Shown here: piece by piece, positions 2,770-29,876 of the stretch | Numbering within the stretch: position 1 is the first letter of the stretch | How the letters are laid out: every line of letters begins with the position of its first letter | DNA from: Candidatus Woesearchaeota archaeon | GTDB lineage: Archaea; Nanobdellota; Nanobdellia; SCGC-AAA011-G17; JACPNG01 | Assembly (NCBI GenBank): GCA_016185605.1 | Contig: JACPNG010000001.1 | Coordinates: 1-35,538 of the forward strand | Direction of reading: 5' to 3' | Length of the DNA: 35,538 nt | The notes under the pieces: model-generated | What the model was told of the DNA's origin: nothing | Database searches by the model: none | Seen by the model: only the letters and a program-made list of their open reading frames with translations | Translations under genes and position numbers: made by a program

Positions 2770-4138
2770 GATATTAATCTTTTTATTCTTAATTTCATTG
2801 TTGATTTTTGTCCTGCCTTTATTATTAGGAAGAATTAATAATGTATTTACAGAGCAGACTTATTACACTTTGAGAATAGCAGAAAATCCTTTTATAAAAT
2901 TTGACCAGTTTAGCTATGGCGGAAGGCCCCATGTATTCTCTGCTTGGCCTGTAATAATAAATCTCTTCAGCAGAGCATTAAATTTGTCTATACAAACCTC
3001 AGCTGTTATATTATCTGTAATATTGGGAACAGCATCAATAATTTTATTTTATTTAATACTAAGAAAATTCGTAAATTCAATTATCTCCTTATTGTCTGTA
3101 TTAATATTAGTATTTTCGCCAAGCTATATTTATTCTTTTGTTACATTAAATGATTTTAGCTTTGTTGCTTTTTTCATGCTTCTGATAATAATATTTATGC
3201 TAAAAGACAACAACATTGCCATATTATTCTTGTCATTTATCTCGCTTTTTGGAATAATACACATTATAGTTGCAAGCTTATTATTGATAATTTACTCTTT
3301 GTGGAGAAAGGAAAATAAATGGCTTTTAGTGCTTCCGTTTTTCTTTATATCAGTAATAATTTATCTGTTTATCTATGGATTGCCTGAATTATTATGGTAT
3401 AATGTGGCTGAAAATAAAGTTTTGATAAATTTAATATCTGATTTTGGAAGTTTTGGTCTTAGTTTATTCACACTAATACTTTCTTTCTTCGGTTTACTAT
3501 TGCTTTGGGAGAAAAAATACAAAAATATGCCAATTTATCTGTCAATAATATTCTTGTTGGTTATGATGAACTTTAGCGTAAATATTATCTTATACCTTGG
3601 TTTTTTCCTGTCATTTATTGCAGCTTTAGGAATAGTAAGGATTGTCGATACTGACTGGAAGATAAAAATAATAAGGAATTCTATATTTTCAATACTTATA
3701 TTGGGGATATTTCTATCATTCTTTATATTTTTTGATAATTTTTATACGCAAGAGCAAAATTCCAATGTTATAGAAAGCCTGAAATTTTTGGATAGCCAGA
3801 CAACAAATAATGATGTTGTTTTCACCCATTACAGCAAAGGGCATTCGTTGGCTTATTTTGGAGAGGTGAAAAATGTTATGGACCAAAATTTTATTTTTGC
3901 GCCCAATCTAAACGAGAGATTTTCTGATTCACAGGATTTTTTATATACAAGGGACTTGAATAAATCAGTTGAGATAGTAAATAAATATAATATTAATTAT
4001 ATATGGATGAGCAAAGAATTAAAGGATGAATTATGGGATGAGGAAAATGAAGGGCTTCAATTTTTATTAGAATACAGCAAAAAATTTAAAAAAATATATA
4101 ACCAAAACAATATGGAGATCTGGAGGGTGGAAGATTGA
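2705..4138 (+). CDS. Polytopic membrane protein, GT-C-like glycosyltransferase candidate (paralogue 2)
   Basis: This 477-residue membrane protein has about ten to eleven hydrophobic segments and a soluble C-terminal domain (about 365-477). It is paralogous to the preceding gene: TYYTLRIAE and SYGGR (70-74) near the N-terminus, and TNNDVVFTHYSKGHSLAYFG plus KYNINYIWMSKE near the C-terminus. The acidic position before the aromatic-Leu-Arg motif is Glu50 rather than Asp. The chosen ATG gives a 65-nt overlap with the upstream gene. It is kept because it supplies a basic cytosolic N-terminus before the first membrane segment; later in-frame starts would cut into that segment. Function is inferred to be lipid-linked sugar transfer or a related step. 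Confidence 0.62.
   Translation: MITALKRYIEQKEPEFTRLDVKILIFLFLISLLIFVLPLLLGRINNVFTEQTYYTLRIAENPFIKFDQFSYGGRPHVFSAWPVIINLFSRALNLSIQTSAVILSVILGTASIILFYLILRKFVNSIISLLSVLILVFSPSYIYSFVTLNDFSFVAFFMLLIIIFMLKDNNIAILFLSFISLFGIIHIIVASLLLIIYSLWRKENKWLLVLPFFFISVIIYLFIYGLPELLWYNVAENKVLINLISDFGSFGLSLFTLILSFFGLLLLWEKKYKNMPIYLSIIFLLVMMNFSVNIILYLGFFLSFIAALGIVRIVDTDWKIKIIRNSIFSILILGIFLSFFIFFDNFYTQEQNSNVIESLKFLDSQTTNNDVVFTHYSKGHSLAYFGEVKNVMDQNFIFAPNLNERFSDSQDFLYTRDLNKSVEIVNKYNINYIWMSKELKDELWDEENEGLQFLLEYSKKFKKIYNQNNMEIWRVED
4122..4130 (+). promoter_or_regulatory. Shine-Dalgarno for the TTG start at 4135
   Basis: The sequence GGAGGGTGG lies a few bases upstream of a TTG codon whose bases overlap the TGA stop of the preceding gene (TTGA). 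No in-frame ATG is better placed, so this ribosome-binding site supports the TTG start and translational coupling. Confidence 0.7.
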
Positions 4139-5389: not shown

Positions 5390-6076
5390 ATGAGAGAGAT
5401 TAGCAGGAACAAATATTTCATAGCATTAGTAATTACATTGGCTGTATTTGTTATAGGGATATTAATCGGAATTTTAGTTACTGAAAAAAGAACTGAGTTC
5501 TTGGAATTGTCTGGAAGGGAGCAGAAAATAGAGTTTGACAGCTTACAGCTACAGTCATTATATCTGACAACCTCATCAGACAAATGCAATGTTGTGAATA
5601 AGGCACTAGAAGAAAATATTAACAGGCTTGAGCAGACCAGAATAAAGCTAGAAAATTATCTTGCCCAGTCCTTTAGCGACAATAATGAATTTCCCCTGAC
5701 AAAAAGGGAGTATATGCTGGCAGAGATGAGATATTTATTGTTAGCCAAGCAAACTAAAGAATTATGCAAGGGAGACAGTATCTCTTTATTATACTTTTAT
5801 TCTAATACTGAAGAATGCGAAGATTGCGACTCACAAGGACTTATATTAACATATCTGAAAGATAAGTTTAAGAACAGGCTATTAATATTCTCGTTAGATT
5901 CTGATTTTAAAGGTGAGGCAATGATAAATATATTTAAAGAGGAATATGATATAGCTAAAGTTCCAACTGTAATAATAGAAAATGAAAAATTTGAAGGCTT
6001 AACAACAAAAGAAGAATTAGAAAAAGTAATATGTTCTTATTATAATGATAAACCAAGTGAGTGCAATGAACTGTGA
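5390..6076 (+). CDS. Membrane-anchored thioredoxin-fold protein with CEDC motif
   Basis: The 228-residue product has one N-terminal membrane helix (about 9-31), then a charged, probably helical stalk (about 35-115). A compact thioredoxin-like domain follows (about 130-215), with a beta strand SLLYFYS, a Cys-x-x-Cys site at C143-E-D-C146, and KVPTVIIEN with the cis-Pro-type loop. The orientation predicted from the basic N-terminus places the domain outside the cell. It could form or isomerise disulfides in exported proteins. The giant Cys-rich proteins encoded downstream are plausible substrates, but that is an inference. It starts 1 nt after the GT2 gene and overlaps MBF1 at its 3' end. Confidence 0.72.
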   Translation: MREISRNKYFIALVITLAVFVIGILIGILVTEKRTEFLELSGREQKIEFDSLQLQSLYLTTSSDKCNVVNKALEENINRLEQTRIKLENYLAQSFSDNNEFPLTKREYMLAEMRYLLLAKQTKELCKGDSISLLYFYSNTEECEDCDSQGLILTYLKDKFKNRLLIFSLDSDFKGEAMINIFKEEYDIAKVPTVIIENEKFEGLTTKEELEKVICSYYNDKPSECNEL

Positions 6077-13172: not shown

Positions 13173-16100
13173 ATGATAATGAAGAGGGGAGTATCAATTT
13201 TTTTAATAATCATAATAGTCTTCTCAATATTTAGCATCTATAATTCTGATAATGTTTATGCCCAGAGCAAAGTCTGCTGCGAAAAAACAGTTGATGGAGA
13301 ATATTGCCAGTTTAGCGATAAGACATTATGCGATTTAAGATCTAGAAGTGTAAGCGCTTCATGTGAACAAACTAGTTATTGTAAACTTGGAAGCTGCTTT
13401 GTGGAAGATGAGGGGAGATGCTTCAAGAATGTTCCTCAATCTAGCTGTACAGCTAGAAAAGGAATTTATTTTGATGAGCCTAACTGCAATATTCCACAAG
13501 CCCAGCAGGGATGCTGCTTATTGGGGAATGACGCTTTCTTCACAACATTAGGGAGATGCAATATTATTACATCTCAATATCCAGATGTGAAGATGAGTTT
13601 TGATGAGTCTATTACAGATGAGTCTCAATGCCTTGAAAAATCAAGAAGCCAGGAGAAAGGGGCTTGCGTAAAAGAGGATGGAACTTGTTTATTTACATCA
13701 AGAGAATCATGCAATACAGCTGGATTAGAAGCAGAAGATTCTAGATTAGAAAAAATAAATCAAACTAGCGTGGGATTTCACAAGGATTTTTTATGCAGCA
13801 ATCCTTTGTTAGGAACAGAATGCGCAAGACAGCAAACAACAAGATGCTCTGATGGAAAAGTATACTGGACAGATAGCTGCGGAAATATTGAAAATGTCTA
13901 TGATTCCAACAAAGAAAGAAGCTATAATAATGGCTTTATTTTATCCCAGCCTTCTTGCGATGCAAATCCAAATGATCCAAATTGCGGAAACTGCGATTAT
14001 GGACTTGGCTCATTATGCGGAAAAGCCCCTAGGGAGGTTAAGCCAGCTTTTGGAGATTTAATATGCAAAAGCGTAGACTGTAAAACAACAACGAAAGAAA
14101 ATCCAGTCAGCCCAAATGCAGGAACCCCAAAAAAGAACGGAGAATCTTGGTGTGTTTATGATGCTGCCACTGGATTTGGAAGGGATGTTGTTGGCTCTAG
14201 ACAATTTAGAAGATTATGCGTTGGCGGAGAGGAAATTACAGAACCCTGCAGAGATTTTAGAGAAGAAATTTGTGTCCAGGGAATTTTAGGACAAGACCCA
14301 TTTGGAACAGAAGCTAGTTTTGGATTAAGTGCTAGGGAAGGAAATTTTGTCGAAGCAAGATGCAGAGTAAATAGAAATAATGGCTGCATAGCTATAGAAA
14401 ACAAAAATGATTGCGAGAATATTGCTTTTGGGGATTGCTTTTGGTTGGCTACTGGAATAAAGACAGATGGAAATACTGGAATTTGTCTATCTACTGTTCC
14501 TAAAGGATTGAAATTCTGGAGTGATATAACTCCAGCAGAAGGTCAGATATTAGGACAGGATGTTGCAGCTAATGTAGCTGCCCAAAGACAAAGAACTCCT
14601 AATGCAGAAGCTACTAGTGTCTGCTCCCAGGGAAATAGAGGATGTGAAATAACTTATAAGACTGGGGGGGTAGCGAGAATAACTGGATTAAGTTTTGGAT
14701 TTTCTGACAAGGATGAATGTGTGAATAATTGTCATTGCGAGGATAAATCATGGGTTATTGCTGCGCATAATACTTGTGTAGCGTTGGGGGACTGCGGGGC
14801 ATATTATAATATTGCAGGGGTATTTACCAATGATGGATTTAGTTCTATTGGAGGATCAATAAATAAAATTAATGCAAATGATGTTGGAAAATGGAATCAG
14901 GGAACTTTATCTACAACAGAATATAAAAAACCAGGACATTTAAATGAAATAACAGATAATAAAGGATTAATAATATCATTAGCTGCTGTAGGACTTACTG
15001 GATTAGTGGGAATTTCAGAGGGAGCTGGATTTTTTAAGGGATTAACATCTGGTACATTAGGTGCTTTGGGTGCGGGAGCAGTTGCTACAGGTGGAGCTCT
15101 TACTAGTTTTTTGGGTTTAACTGGGAAGGATATTTTGGGTGGTAAAGGAGCAACAGTATCAGAAACATTTGGTCAAGGGTTAAAGACTTATGGCTCAAAA
15201 TTAGCTTCTGAAGCAACACTTACTCCTGGAACTGTAATAAATGCTGGGAAAGAATCTATGAAAATAAGTTATACTAAAATTATAGATACTCGGGGAAGTT
15301 ATAATATCCCAGAAGGTGCAAATAGCATTTATCTTAATGGAGATCTATTAACCCTTGCACCAAATACTAAATTAACATTAGCGGAAGGAAGTAGACTTCA
15401 ATATAGTTTTACTGAGAATATCGCTGCTGAAAAATCTTTTACTATAGCAAAGGATACTGTTATTCATAAAGTTGAGGGAACTACAGCTACAGTAAATCAA
15501 GCATCATTAACTGGACAAATCTGGGGCATAATTAATGTAGCAGCTATAACTTGGTCAGTATTACAGCTAGCTGATGTATTATTTGCAAAAACCAAAACAA
15601 AAAATGTACAAGTAACATGTGATGCTTGGAGGGCTCCTGAAGGCGGCTCTGACTGCAGACAATGCGGAAAAGATGGAAAGGGATGTTCTGAATACAGATG
15701 CAAATCATTAGGACAGAATTGTGTCTTGATAAATGAAGGAACTGGAAAAGAAGAATGTATTAATCTCCATCCAAATGATGTTAATAGCCCAATAATAACC
15801 CCAGCAAAAGAATTAATAACAAAGGGATTGACAATAAAGGAATTAAATGAAAAGGGAATAAAAGGATTTCAGATTAATGAAAGGATAGAGGCATTCAAGC
15901 CAATAAATCTAGGTATAAAAACTAATGAGCCGGCACAATGCAAATATGATTCTAATAACAGCGTTAAATTCAATGATATGAATAATTTCTTCGGAGATAC
16001 TTTATATGAATCAAATCATACATTAATGTTAAGATTGCCTGGAGAGTTAGCTGAGCCAGAAGCAATAAAATTAACTAATGGGGGAACCCATAATTTATAT

Positions 16101-17039
16101 GTAAGATGCAAAGATAGATCTGGAAATGCAAATGAAAAAGATTATATGATAAGATTTAGGATACAGCCTGGACCAGATTTAACACCCCCAATAATAGAAA
16201 GGACAAGCATACAAAATGGAGCATTTGTTCCTCAAGGTATTAATGAAACTGATTTAAGCATTTATGTGAATGAGCCCAGTTCATGTAAATGGAGCAATAA
16301 AGATACTGATTATGAGGTTATGGAAAATACATTCCAATGCGCTACAACAGGAATAGAGCAGGATTTAGGGGTATTTGGATTATATAGATGCAATACAGAA
16401 TTAAAAGGAATTAATTTTGGAGAGAATAAATTTTATTTCAGATGCAAGGATCAGCCAACAAAGCAGGAAAATCAAAGGAATGTAAATGAGGAAAGCTTAT
16501 TGTTTACATTGTCTGGAACTAATGAGTTAAATATAGTAGAAGCTGGACCTTCTGGAACATTATATGATATTCCTATATTAAGGGTTGTGACTTCTGGAGG
16601 GGCTGAAAATGGAAAATCAATATGTGCATTCTCAGAAGAGGATGCTGGATTTGAGGCAATGACCCAATTCTTCAACTCAGATTCTACAATAAACACTCAG
16701 GAATTAATATTGGACAAGGGAAATTATAATTTCTTTGTCAAATGCAGGGATAAAGCTGGAAATGAAGATTTTACTCAAATAAAGTTCAGATTAGATATAG
16801 ATGTTTCTGGACCAAGAGTAGCTTTATTATACAAAGATTCATCTGCTTCATTATTGCATCTAGAAACAACTGAAAATTCCATATGTGAATATTCAAATAA
16901 TGGGGCATTTAAATTTGGGGAGGGGACATTGATGACTGGACAGGAAAAAGCCCATGAAGCCAGCTTAGTAAATGAAAGATACCATATTATATGCAGGGAC
17001 AGTAAAAATAATGAAGTCAAGTTTGTTGTAATTCCTTAA
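13173..17039 (+). CDS. Giant Cys-rich secreted protein with hydrophobic core and Ig-like repeats (paralogue B)
   Basis: At 1288 residues this is the longest product here. It has a signal peptide with likely cleavage after VYA31, a Cys-rich region (about 35-560; it begins CCEKTVDGEYC), a Gly-rich hydrophobic zone (about 590-660) and an extra domain of about 130 residues absent from paralogue A. A membrane-type segment (IWGIINVAAITWSVLQLADVL, about 788-808) and four Ig-like units with CKD/CRD-xx-GN strands (about 900-1288) complete it. Blocks shared with paralogue A include SDNxYA, KNGESWCVY, EPCRDFREEICVQ, CKSLGQ, NPND/HPNDVNSPII and TSGGAENGKSIC. Starts at 13173 or 13179 are equally possible. 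Its last 17 bases are repeated beyond the antitoxin/toxin islet. No named family recognised. Confidence 0.85.
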   Translation: MIMKRGVSIFLIIIIVFSIFSIYNSDNVYAQSKVCCEKTVDGEYCQFSDKTLCDLRSRSVSASCEQTSYCKLGSCFVEDEGRCFKNVPQSSCTARKGIYFDEPNCNIPQAQQGCCLLGNDAFFTTLGRCNIITSQYPDVKMSFDESITDESQCLEKSRSQEKGACVKEDGTCLFTSRESCNTAGLEAEDSRLEKINQTSVGFHKDFLCSNPLLGTECARQQTTRCSDGKVYWTDSCGNIENVYDSNKERSYNNGFILSQPSCDANPNDPNCGNCDYGLGSLCGKAPREVKPAFGDLICKSVDCKTTTKENPVSPNAGTPKKNGESWCVYDAATGFGRDVVGSRQFRRLCVGGEEITEPCRDFREEICVQGILGQDPFGTEASFGLSAREGNFVEARCRVNRNNGCIAIENKNDCENIAFGDCFWLATGIKTDGNTGICLSTVPKGLKFWSDITPAEGQILGQDVAANVAAQRQRTPNAEATSVCSQGNRGCEITYKTGGVARITGLSFGFSDKDECVNNCHCEDKSWVIAAHNTCVALGDCGAYYNIAGVFTNDGFSSIGGSINKINANDVGKWNQGTLSTTEYKKPGHLNEITDNKGLIISLAAVGLTGLVGISEGAGFFKGLTSGTLGALGAGAVATGGALTSFLGLTGKDILGGKGATVSETFGQGLKTYGSKLASEATLTPGTVINAGKESMKISYTKIIDTRGSYNIPEGANSIYLNGDLLTLAPNTKLTLAEGSRLQYSFTENIAAEKSFTIAKDTVIHKVEGTTATVNQASLTGQIWGIINVAAITWSVLQLADVLFAKTKTKNVQVTCDAWRAPEGGSDCRQCGKDGKGCSEYRCKSLGQNCVLINEGTGKEECINLHPNDVNSPIITPAKELITKGLTIKELNEKGIKGFQINERIEAFKPINLGIKTNEPAQCKYDSNNSVKFNDMNNFFGDTLYESNHTLMLRLPGELAEPEAIKLTNGGTHNLYVRCKDRSGNANEKDYMIRFRIQPGPDLTPPIIERTSIQNGAFVPQGINETDLSIYVNEPSSCKWSNKDTDYEVMENTFQCATTGIEQDLGVFGLYRCNTELKGINFGENKFYFRCKDQPTKQENQRNVNEESLLFTLSGTNELNIVEAGPSGTLYDIPILRVVTSGGAENGKSICAFSEEDAGFEAMTQFFNSDSTINTQELILDKGNYNFFVKCRDKAGNEDFTQIKFRLDIDVSGPRVALLYKDSSASLLHLETTENSICEYSNNGAFKFGEGTLMTGQEKAHEASLVNERYHIICRDSKNNEVKFVVIP
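17023..17039 (+). repeat. 17-bp direct repeat, left copy
   Basis: ttgttgtaattccttaa includes the stop codon and last codons of the giant Cys-rich gene. An exact copy lies at 17539-17555, so the pair brackets the 0.5-kb antitoxin/toxin islet. Confidence 0.85.
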
Positions 17040-17062: not shown

Positions 17063-17086
17063 GATAAAACCATGATAAATATTAAA

Positions 17087-17236
17087 ATGAAAGAACAAAT
17101 GATGTTGATTTCCAAGAAAGAGTATGAAGGGATGAAAGAAACCATAGAGATATTGCAAAATCCAGATATGATGAGCCAGATTTTAGAGAGTGAAAAGAAT
17201 ATTAAAGAAGGCAAAATAAAGGAACTAAAATATTAG
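17087..17236 (+). CDS. Short antitoxin-like protein (Phd/YefM or RelB C-terminal type)
   Basis: This 49-residue frame (54 if started at 17072) contains ISKKEYEGMKETIEILQNPD, then MMSQILESEKNIKEGKIKEL. That pattern of a Tyr-containing helix, 'LxNPDMM' and 'I-K-E-G-K' is common in antitoxins paired with RelE/ParE-fold toxins. It lacks an N-terminal DNA-binding domain, as do other very short archaeal antitoxins. The gene faces a broken RelE-like gene on the other strand; the two stop codons overlap. The assignment rests on short motifs and the neighbour. Confidence 0.65.
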   Translation: MKEQMMLISKKEYEGMKETIEILQNPDMMSQILESEKNIKEGKIKELKY

Positions 17237-17490
17237 TATATATTATGCGTTCCTATCGCTTCTACAACAATTATTCTGTTAACATCATCTATTATATATA
17301 TCATTCATATGTTATAACCCAGCCAACAACTCCATTTTCCAGATAATCTTCCATGTAAAGGATGAGCGCCAATTTCTCTTCTTGGGTCATTTTTTAGTTT
17401 TTCAAGCTTATCTTTAATATCTTTTCTTAATTTGATATATTTATGCAATCTTCTTTCAGTCTTTGCATTTGCTGTAAAGAGATTATACAT
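17233..17490 (-). pseudogene. RelE/ParE-superfamily toxin interrupted by in-frame TGA
   Basis: Reading the minus strand from ATG 17490 gives 61 residues ending HPLHGRLSGKWSCWLGYNI, then TGA (17307-17305). The same frame then continues for 23 residues (MIYIIDDVNRIIVVEAIG, then THNIY) to TAA at 17235-17233. Together they make a full-length RelE-like toxin of 85 codons; the TGA falls where homologues usually have the Arg of '[YF]-x-[IV]-R-x-[IV]-Y', a residue implicated in RNA cleavage. TGA ends other genes in this window, so recoding is unlikely and the toxin is probably dead. A TATA-like element lies 25 nt upstream of the ATG. Confidence 0.78.
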
Positions 17491-28496: not shown

Positions 28497-29876
28497 TTAC
28501 ATCATTCCCAGTATAAATTTAGCAGCTAATAAATTATATTTTAACTGCGTCATAGTCCTTATTCTCATTATATGCTGCATTATTTTTCTAGGCCTTAAAT
28601 AGAATTTTCTATAGGCTGTTCTCTGCCATTTTAATATGTCATCTGCACTTAAATCTTTTAAATGATGGACTGGAGCAGTGTAAACTCCATAATTATCATA
28701 ATCTATATTATCTATTAAATTCTCTTCCTGCAGTTGATCCCAGACATGGCTGTTTGGATAGGGTTTTAGTATTAAAAATTTCGCAAAATCAACATCTAAT
28801 TCCTTGGCAAAGTTTATTGTATCTTTTATTGTGGATTCATTTTCTCCAGGCAATCCCAGAATAAAGAAGCCCCAGGTCTGGAATCCAAGTTCCTTGGCCA
28901 TTTTATATGATTCTCTTACCCTATCTAATCTAATATCTTTTCTTATATTATTAAGAATCTGCTGATTTCCAGATTCTACTCCACAGCCAATGCTTATTAC
29001 TCCTAAATCCTTTAATGCCTCTAATCTCTCTTTATCAACTTGATCTGCCCTTAATCCATTTGCCAGGACAAAATTAACATCTATATCTCTTCTTTTTACC
29101 TCGTCTCTAAATTGAAATACTCTTTCTTTATTATATGTAAACACATCATCCATTAGATGGATTTCCTGAATTCCAAATTCCCTTACAACATGTTCAATCT
29201 CATCAACAATATTTTTTGGGCTCCTGAATCTAAATTCCTGACCAAGAATATGCTTAGTGCAGCAATATGTGCATCTAGAAGGACACCCACGACTAGTCAT
29301 CATTGGAGTTACTGGCTCTCTCATTGCATCTGGCGGCTTATATGCTGTTGGGTTTTTTAACAAGTGTCTAGAAGGAAATGGCAATGAATCTAGATCTTGT
29401 ATATATGGCCTGTCTTTATTTCTTATTATCTCTCCATTCTTCTTATACCACATTCCATCAATATTAAAATCTTTATTATCTAGATTATCAACTACTAATG
29501 GGATTGTTATTTCTCCTTCTCCTTTAACAATGAAATCAAAGCATCCATAATTCATGCATTCTTCAGGCATCATTGTAGAATGCAATCCCCCAAGCAAAGT
29601 TTTAATTCCTTCCTGCTTGGCTAATGAGGCAATCTGTTTGGCGCTGTTAATATTGGCTGTGGAAGCTGTTAGTCCAACTAATTCTGGATTAAATGTCTTG
29701 AAAATCTGTTTTAATTTCTGATCGTTCATATTATCAGCGTCATAATCCACAACTTTAATGTCATGCTCTTTTTCTAATACAGCTGCTATGTACAATAATC
29801 CCAAAGGGGGATAGATTGGACTAATATTTTGACCATACACAGTTGAAGAAGAAGGACTCACCAACAACACCCTCAT
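28497..29876 (-). CDS. B12-binding-domain radical SAM protein
   Basis: The 459-residue enzyme has an N-terminal cobalamin-binding-type Rossmann domain (about 1-135; IYPPLGLLYIAAVLEKEHD, GLTASTANI, LLGGLHSTMMPEE, DFIVKGEGE). A radical SAM core follows, with the 4Fe-4S motif C198-x3-C202-x2-C205 (SRGCPSRCTYC) and GCGVESGNQQIL plus WGFFILGLPGE. A C-terminal segment of about 90 residues completes it. Such proteins often methylate or rearrange unactivated carbons in lipids, cofactors or sugars; the substrate here is unknown. It is the only minus-strand gene inside the glycan locus and shares a divergent promoter region with the GlcNAc-1-P transferase gene. Confidence 0.9.
   Translation of the reverse strand: MRVLLVSPSSSTVYGQNISPIYPPLGLLYIAAVLEKEHDIKVVDYDADNMNDQKLKQIFKTFNPELVGLTASTANINSAKQIASLAKQEGIKTLLGGLHSTMMPEECMNYGCFDFIVKGEGEITIPLVVDNLDNKDFNIDGMWYKKNGEIIRNKDRPYIQDLDSLPFPSRHLLKNPTAYKPPDAMREPVTPMMTSRGCPSRCTYCCTKHILGQEFRFRSPKNIVDEIEHVVREFGIQEIHLMDDVFTYNKERVFQFRDEVKRRDIDVNFVLANGLRADQVDKERLEALKDLGVISIGCGVESGNQQILNNIRKDIRLDRVRESYKMAKELGFQTWGFFILGLPGENESTIKDTINFAKELDVDFAKFLILKPYPNSHVWDQLQEENLIDNIDYDNYGVYTAPVHHLKDLSADDILKWQRTAYRKFYLRPRKIMQHIMRIRTMTQLKYNLLAAKFILGMM

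Follow-up and report, generated by a model that had tools for sequence, protein, structure and literature searches.

What has become of a toxin gene whose reading frame is interrupted by a single stop codon, and what has become of its partner? This question is raised by a locus in the 35,538-nucleotide stretch at positions 1 to 35,538 of contig JACPNG010000001.1, from a Candidatus Woesearchaeota archaeon (assembly GCA_016185605.1), which we call the window. Our answer, to which we give a probability of about 82%, is that the locus holds a type II toxin-antitoxin pair of the Woesearchaeota with its genes arranged tail to tail, and that the toxin has here recently been killed at its catalytic Arg while the antitoxin has survived.

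The interrupted toxin gene

The minus-strand frame of the toxin consists of 61 codons, a TGA, 23 further codons, and a TAA (Table 1). An earlier note on this DNA had described the 23 residues after the single TGA as completing the C-terminus of the family, and the full-length comparison bears this out: the toxin is 67-69% identical over 85/85 residues to intact proteins from Woesearchaeota, and these nearest relatives are full length and all unbroken. At the composition of the window, 85 codons would contain one stop or none with a probability of 0.005, and because of the homology to intact relatives a chance open frame is untenable. The genome contains one copy of the gene. Read through with an X at the TGA, the toxin matches Pfam YafQ_toxin (PF15738) with an E-value of 6.5e-6, but its score of 26.8 bits is below the gathering cut-off of 30 bits. 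The relatives reach about 25 bits against the 87.25-bit cut-off of NCBIfam TIGR00053, so that neither they nor the window toxin would be classified as YafQ proper. Four of the relatives score above the cut-off of NCBIfam RelE_StbE. A profile search with residues 1-61 of the toxin alone found no match to a toxin family.

The AlphaFold2 model of one relative (locus L008) has a predicted local distance difference test value of 93.5, and Foldseek matches it to structures of YafQ, YoeB, and RelE, so that the RelE-like fold is found in the relative that was modelled. Residue 62 is Arg in 31/32 aligned relatives, and His43 and His82 are invariant. In profile alignments Arg62 corresponds to the Arg of the 'HRVVY' motif in the solved YoeB of Staphylococcus aureus, and the two histidines correspond to the respective His residues of Helicobacter pylori HP0892. 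The equivalent Arg65 of YoeB is described to stabilise the transition state, His83 of YoeB is the general acid, and His50 of YafQ has been proposed to be the general base (PMC3814384). The active site of the toxin probably consists of His43, Arg62, and His82. The relatives have all three residues, whereas in the window toxin Arg62 is replaced by the stop and His82 lies beyond it. Residues 61-81 of the L008 model form the two final strands of its sheet; judged from alignment and model, the TGA takes away the putative catalytic Arg, these two strands, and the putative catalytic His. The earlier note had placed the stop at an Arg that is conserved in the family and important for RNA cleavage, with which these data agree. 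All intact relatives but one carry Arg at this position and none naturally ends there.

The antitoxin and the convergent layout

While the earlier note was sound in its reading of the toxin, it was silent on the intact antitoxin gene that converges on it and on the convergent layout as the rule in the family. As in other type II systems, a gene for a protein antitoxin adjoins the toxin gene. In its 49-residue form the antitoxin matches PhdYeFM_antitox with an E-value of 1e-4, below the cut-off, and only over profile positions 35-72 of 74. It is therefore not a complete Phd/YefM protein, which would combine an N-terminal DNA-binding domain with a toxin-binding arm. The ATG at 17087 is preferred as start over that at 17072 because of the relatives and the TATA spacing, and the protein shows 82% identity with its counterpart from L008. 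The distances among toxins and among antitoxins correlate (Mantel r 0.83, p 0.0002, n=19), as would be expected of cognate partners, although shared descent contributes too. In some relatives the antitoxin is longer, with about 75 residues, and has an N-terminus similar to a ribbon-helix-helix (RHH) domain. Two of four such antitoxins match RHH_1 (E-value about 4e-4); the short form in the window has no such domain. Upstream of longer RHH-like antitoxins (L021, L023, L024, L027, L030, L033, and L035) TAGTA/TACTA repeats are seen by eye downstream of the TATA box and before the start codon, which are perhaps an autoregulatory operator.

Searches of the relatives, the order, the class, and the phylum, together with one named-genome scan, yielded 49 distinct loci, of which 47 have a detectable antitoxin. 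It is convergent to the toxin in 45/47, so that the single co-directed operon typical of type II is not what characterises this family. The overlap is exactly 4 nucleotides (nt) long in 31 of the 45 convergent loci. The two exceptions with co-directed genes, L025 and L044, fall together in a single clade (100/95) within the convergent family, and two changes of orientation suffice on a toxin tree that is rooted with ordinary RelE toxins and rests on 85 columns. Seven distant RelE loci from the same searches (L046, L047, L049-L053) served as control; their antitoxins are located upstream on the same strand. In 12/49 distinct loci the toxin is damaged, fragmentary, or cut, part of which may be assembly error, and in 8/12 the convergent antitoxin reads intact. 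The breaks in the relatives include a TAA near residue 39 (L026), a TAG at residue 53 (L029), and frameshifts (L038, L039, L042, L060, and L061). The relatives were not found in viral contigs, plasmids, or phages, so that carriage by mobile elements was rejected, and a search with PADLOC found no defence families. In one genome (G051) there is a tandem of two convergent pairs that differ in subtype, and each pair has the antitoxin type that matches it (L003, 928-1919; L007, 951-1942). At L034 (1728-1965) unrelated sequence replaces the last residues of the toxin, and the convergent antitoxin, shifted by about 80 nt, is truncated at the end of the contig.

Promoter-like TATA boxes were defined as matching TTTAWAWA in at least 7 of 8 positions and starting between -34 and -26. 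They precede 26/35 toxins (shuffle mean 4.9, maximum 10) and 26/28 antitoxins (shuffle mean 3.4, maximum 10). Their spacing suggests nearly leaderless transcripts that start independently and run at each other. The T-runs that follow the toxin stop are longer than those that follow the antitoxin stop (means 5.6 vs 4.3, p 9e-5). However, they do not exceed what synonymous shuffling of the Lys-rich end of the antitoxin gives (5.7 vs 6.1) and thus do not seem to be selected. A dedicated U-tract terminator of the toxin transcript was rejected on these grounds.

Table 1. Features of the toxin-antitoxin locus (positions in the window)
Feature	Position	Strand	Basis or remark
Toxin gene, RelE superfamily (YafQ/YoeB-like), 85 codons and TAA, one in-frame TGA	17233-17490	-	Frame reading, Pfam match, homologue alignment
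In-frame TGA, residue 62	17305-17307	-	Arg in 31/32 aligned intact relatives
Antitoxin gene, intact, 49 residues and TAG, like the C-terminal arm of Phd/YefM, no DNA-binding domain	17087-17236	+	Profile match, relatives, TATA spacing
Overlap of 4 nt with interlocked stop codons (TAA of the toxin, TAG of the antitoxin), read as CTAA on the toxin strand	17233-17236	both	
TATA-like box TTTATTAA	17512-17519	-	At -29 of the toxin ATG
TATA-like box TTTTAAAA	17054-17061	+	At -33 of the antitoxin ATG 17087

Mechanism, age and cause of the probable inactivation

The toxin gene would be read leftward from its own promoter and encode a ribosome-associated mRNA endonuclease similar to YafQ and YoeB. The antitoxin gene would be read rightward from its own promoter into a small neutralising peptide of the Phd/YefM kind, and the overlap of the two coding regions falls on their stop codons. 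The peptide probably binds and blocks the nuclease in those relatives that are intact. In the lineage of the window a nonsense mutation at the catalytic Arg would have killed the nuclease, with the antitoxin left over. A loss of the toxin before the antitoxin would be the expected order, since a cell could not survive the opposite one.

The nonsynonymous divergence (dN) of the toxin from its relatives is about 0.13-0.36 both before and after the stop with synonymous sites mostly saturated, and in the antitoxin dN is likewise well below the saturated synonymous divergence (dS). At columns that are at least 90% conserved the toxin departs only by two mild residues and the stop (K13R, the stop, and K83N), and K83N is shared with an intact relative (L009). 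Given that there is no decay after the stop, the gene either was inactivated recently or shows a stop that is an artefact of the assembly or the strain. The inactivation looks recent from these comparisons. The earlier note had already proposed a recent inactivation with the rest intact, for which the absence of decay speaks, but an assembly or strain artefact is also compatible with this absence.

If the TGA were an artefact of sequencing, assembly, or binning, or a minority allele, the living cells would have an intact toxin. This would fit a genome in 26 contigs that is 91.85% complete and a toxin frame undamaged apart from the TGA. We nevertheless regard it as unlikely, given that broken toxins recur across unrelated assemblies of the same toxin family and that no further broken gene was noted among the main reading frames of the window, which were looked at unsystematically. 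That the truncated product of 61 residues still has a function, for instance as a sink for the antitoxin or as a regulator, is very improbable: the promoter box and the N-terminal part of the toxin are kept, but the product would lack both final sheet strands and the invariant His82, and no natural relative ends at residue 61. It is hardly conceivable that the TGA encodes an amino acid here, be it selenocysteine (Sec), Trp, or Arg, or that translation continues through it, even if the conserved sequence goes on beyond it. A tRNA-Sec was searched for in the genome and not found, so that selenocysteine was rejected; the Trp codons of the toxin are TGG; TGA terminates 7/32 main genes of the window; and in the relatives the breaks lie at other residues and are due to TAA, TAG, or frameshifts. 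The earlier note had argued against recoding from the TGA stops at 4136-4138 and 6074-6076, and both the stops and the argument hold.

Several points weigh against a recently killed toxin as preferred here. The TGA is seen in a single assembly of one strain, and an assembly error or a mixed population is possible. The Mantel and dN/dS results come from few sequences with a shared ancestry, the window toxin stays below the Pfam YafQ cut-off, and the expression and activity of the pair are predictions from sequence.

The tail-to-tail layout might itself be functional. The antitoxin transcript could extend through the toxin gene as antisense RNA, or opposing polymerases could collide. The antitoxin gene would then restrain the toxin by its RNA as well as by its protein, and this mixture of type I and type II control would replace operon autoregulation. 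The geometry of the pair would allow type I-like RNA pairing. We consider a function of this kind possible, but rather doubtful.

Genomic surroundings

The pair is flanked by the genes of a 1288-residue protein with weak matches to immunoglobulin-like domains (13173-17039) and of a protein that matches the surface-layer family PF05124 (19750-21993), between which several unannotated small proteins are encoded. A radical S-adenosylmethionine protein with a B12-binding domain (28497-29876) is among the few long minus-strand genes of the window.

Relation to known systems

The toxin fold and the putative catalytic residues resemble those of DinJ-YafQ and YefM-YoeB from Escherichia coli, and the antitoxin resembles the C-terminal arm of Phd/YefM. 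However, these systems are co-directed operons with DNA-binding antitoxins, whereas the pair in the window is convergent with separate promoter-like boxes and an antitoxin without DNA-binding domain. The pair aRelE-aRelB of Pyrococcus horikoshii is an ordinary operon. Its archaeal RelE fold (1wmi) is similar, but the structural match is weaker. Convergent transcription of toxin and antitoxin with overlapping 3' ends is found in the type I systems fst RNAI/RNAII and BsrG/SR4 (PMC3874152). Their antitoxin is an antisense RNA, in contrast to the conserved protein described here.

Searches of an open-access library found no convergent type II pair; the few papers in which the words matched deal with type I systems, with genes that are merely neighbours, or with constructs for cloning. 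We therefore call the convergent type II toxin-antitoxin a new variant. In TADB 3.0 the systems of types II-VII are tandem genes on one strand, a rule that is kept by the predictor (PMC10767807), and the type II survey of 2009 considered co-directed neighbours only (PMC2701414). Because surveys and predictors accept only such neighbours, convergent pairs of the DPANN archaea would be missed or listed as solitary toxins, and the short antitoxins may also escape gene calling.

A broken toxin alone is ordinary, and the interest of the locus lies in the conserved convergent layout. In the textbook view, type II systems are regulated by co-transcription and autorepression. The convergent family seems to make do with two promoters that face each other, and often without a DNA-binding domain. 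The repeated death of the toxin with survival of the antitoxin would provide a natural series for studying the decay of such modules.
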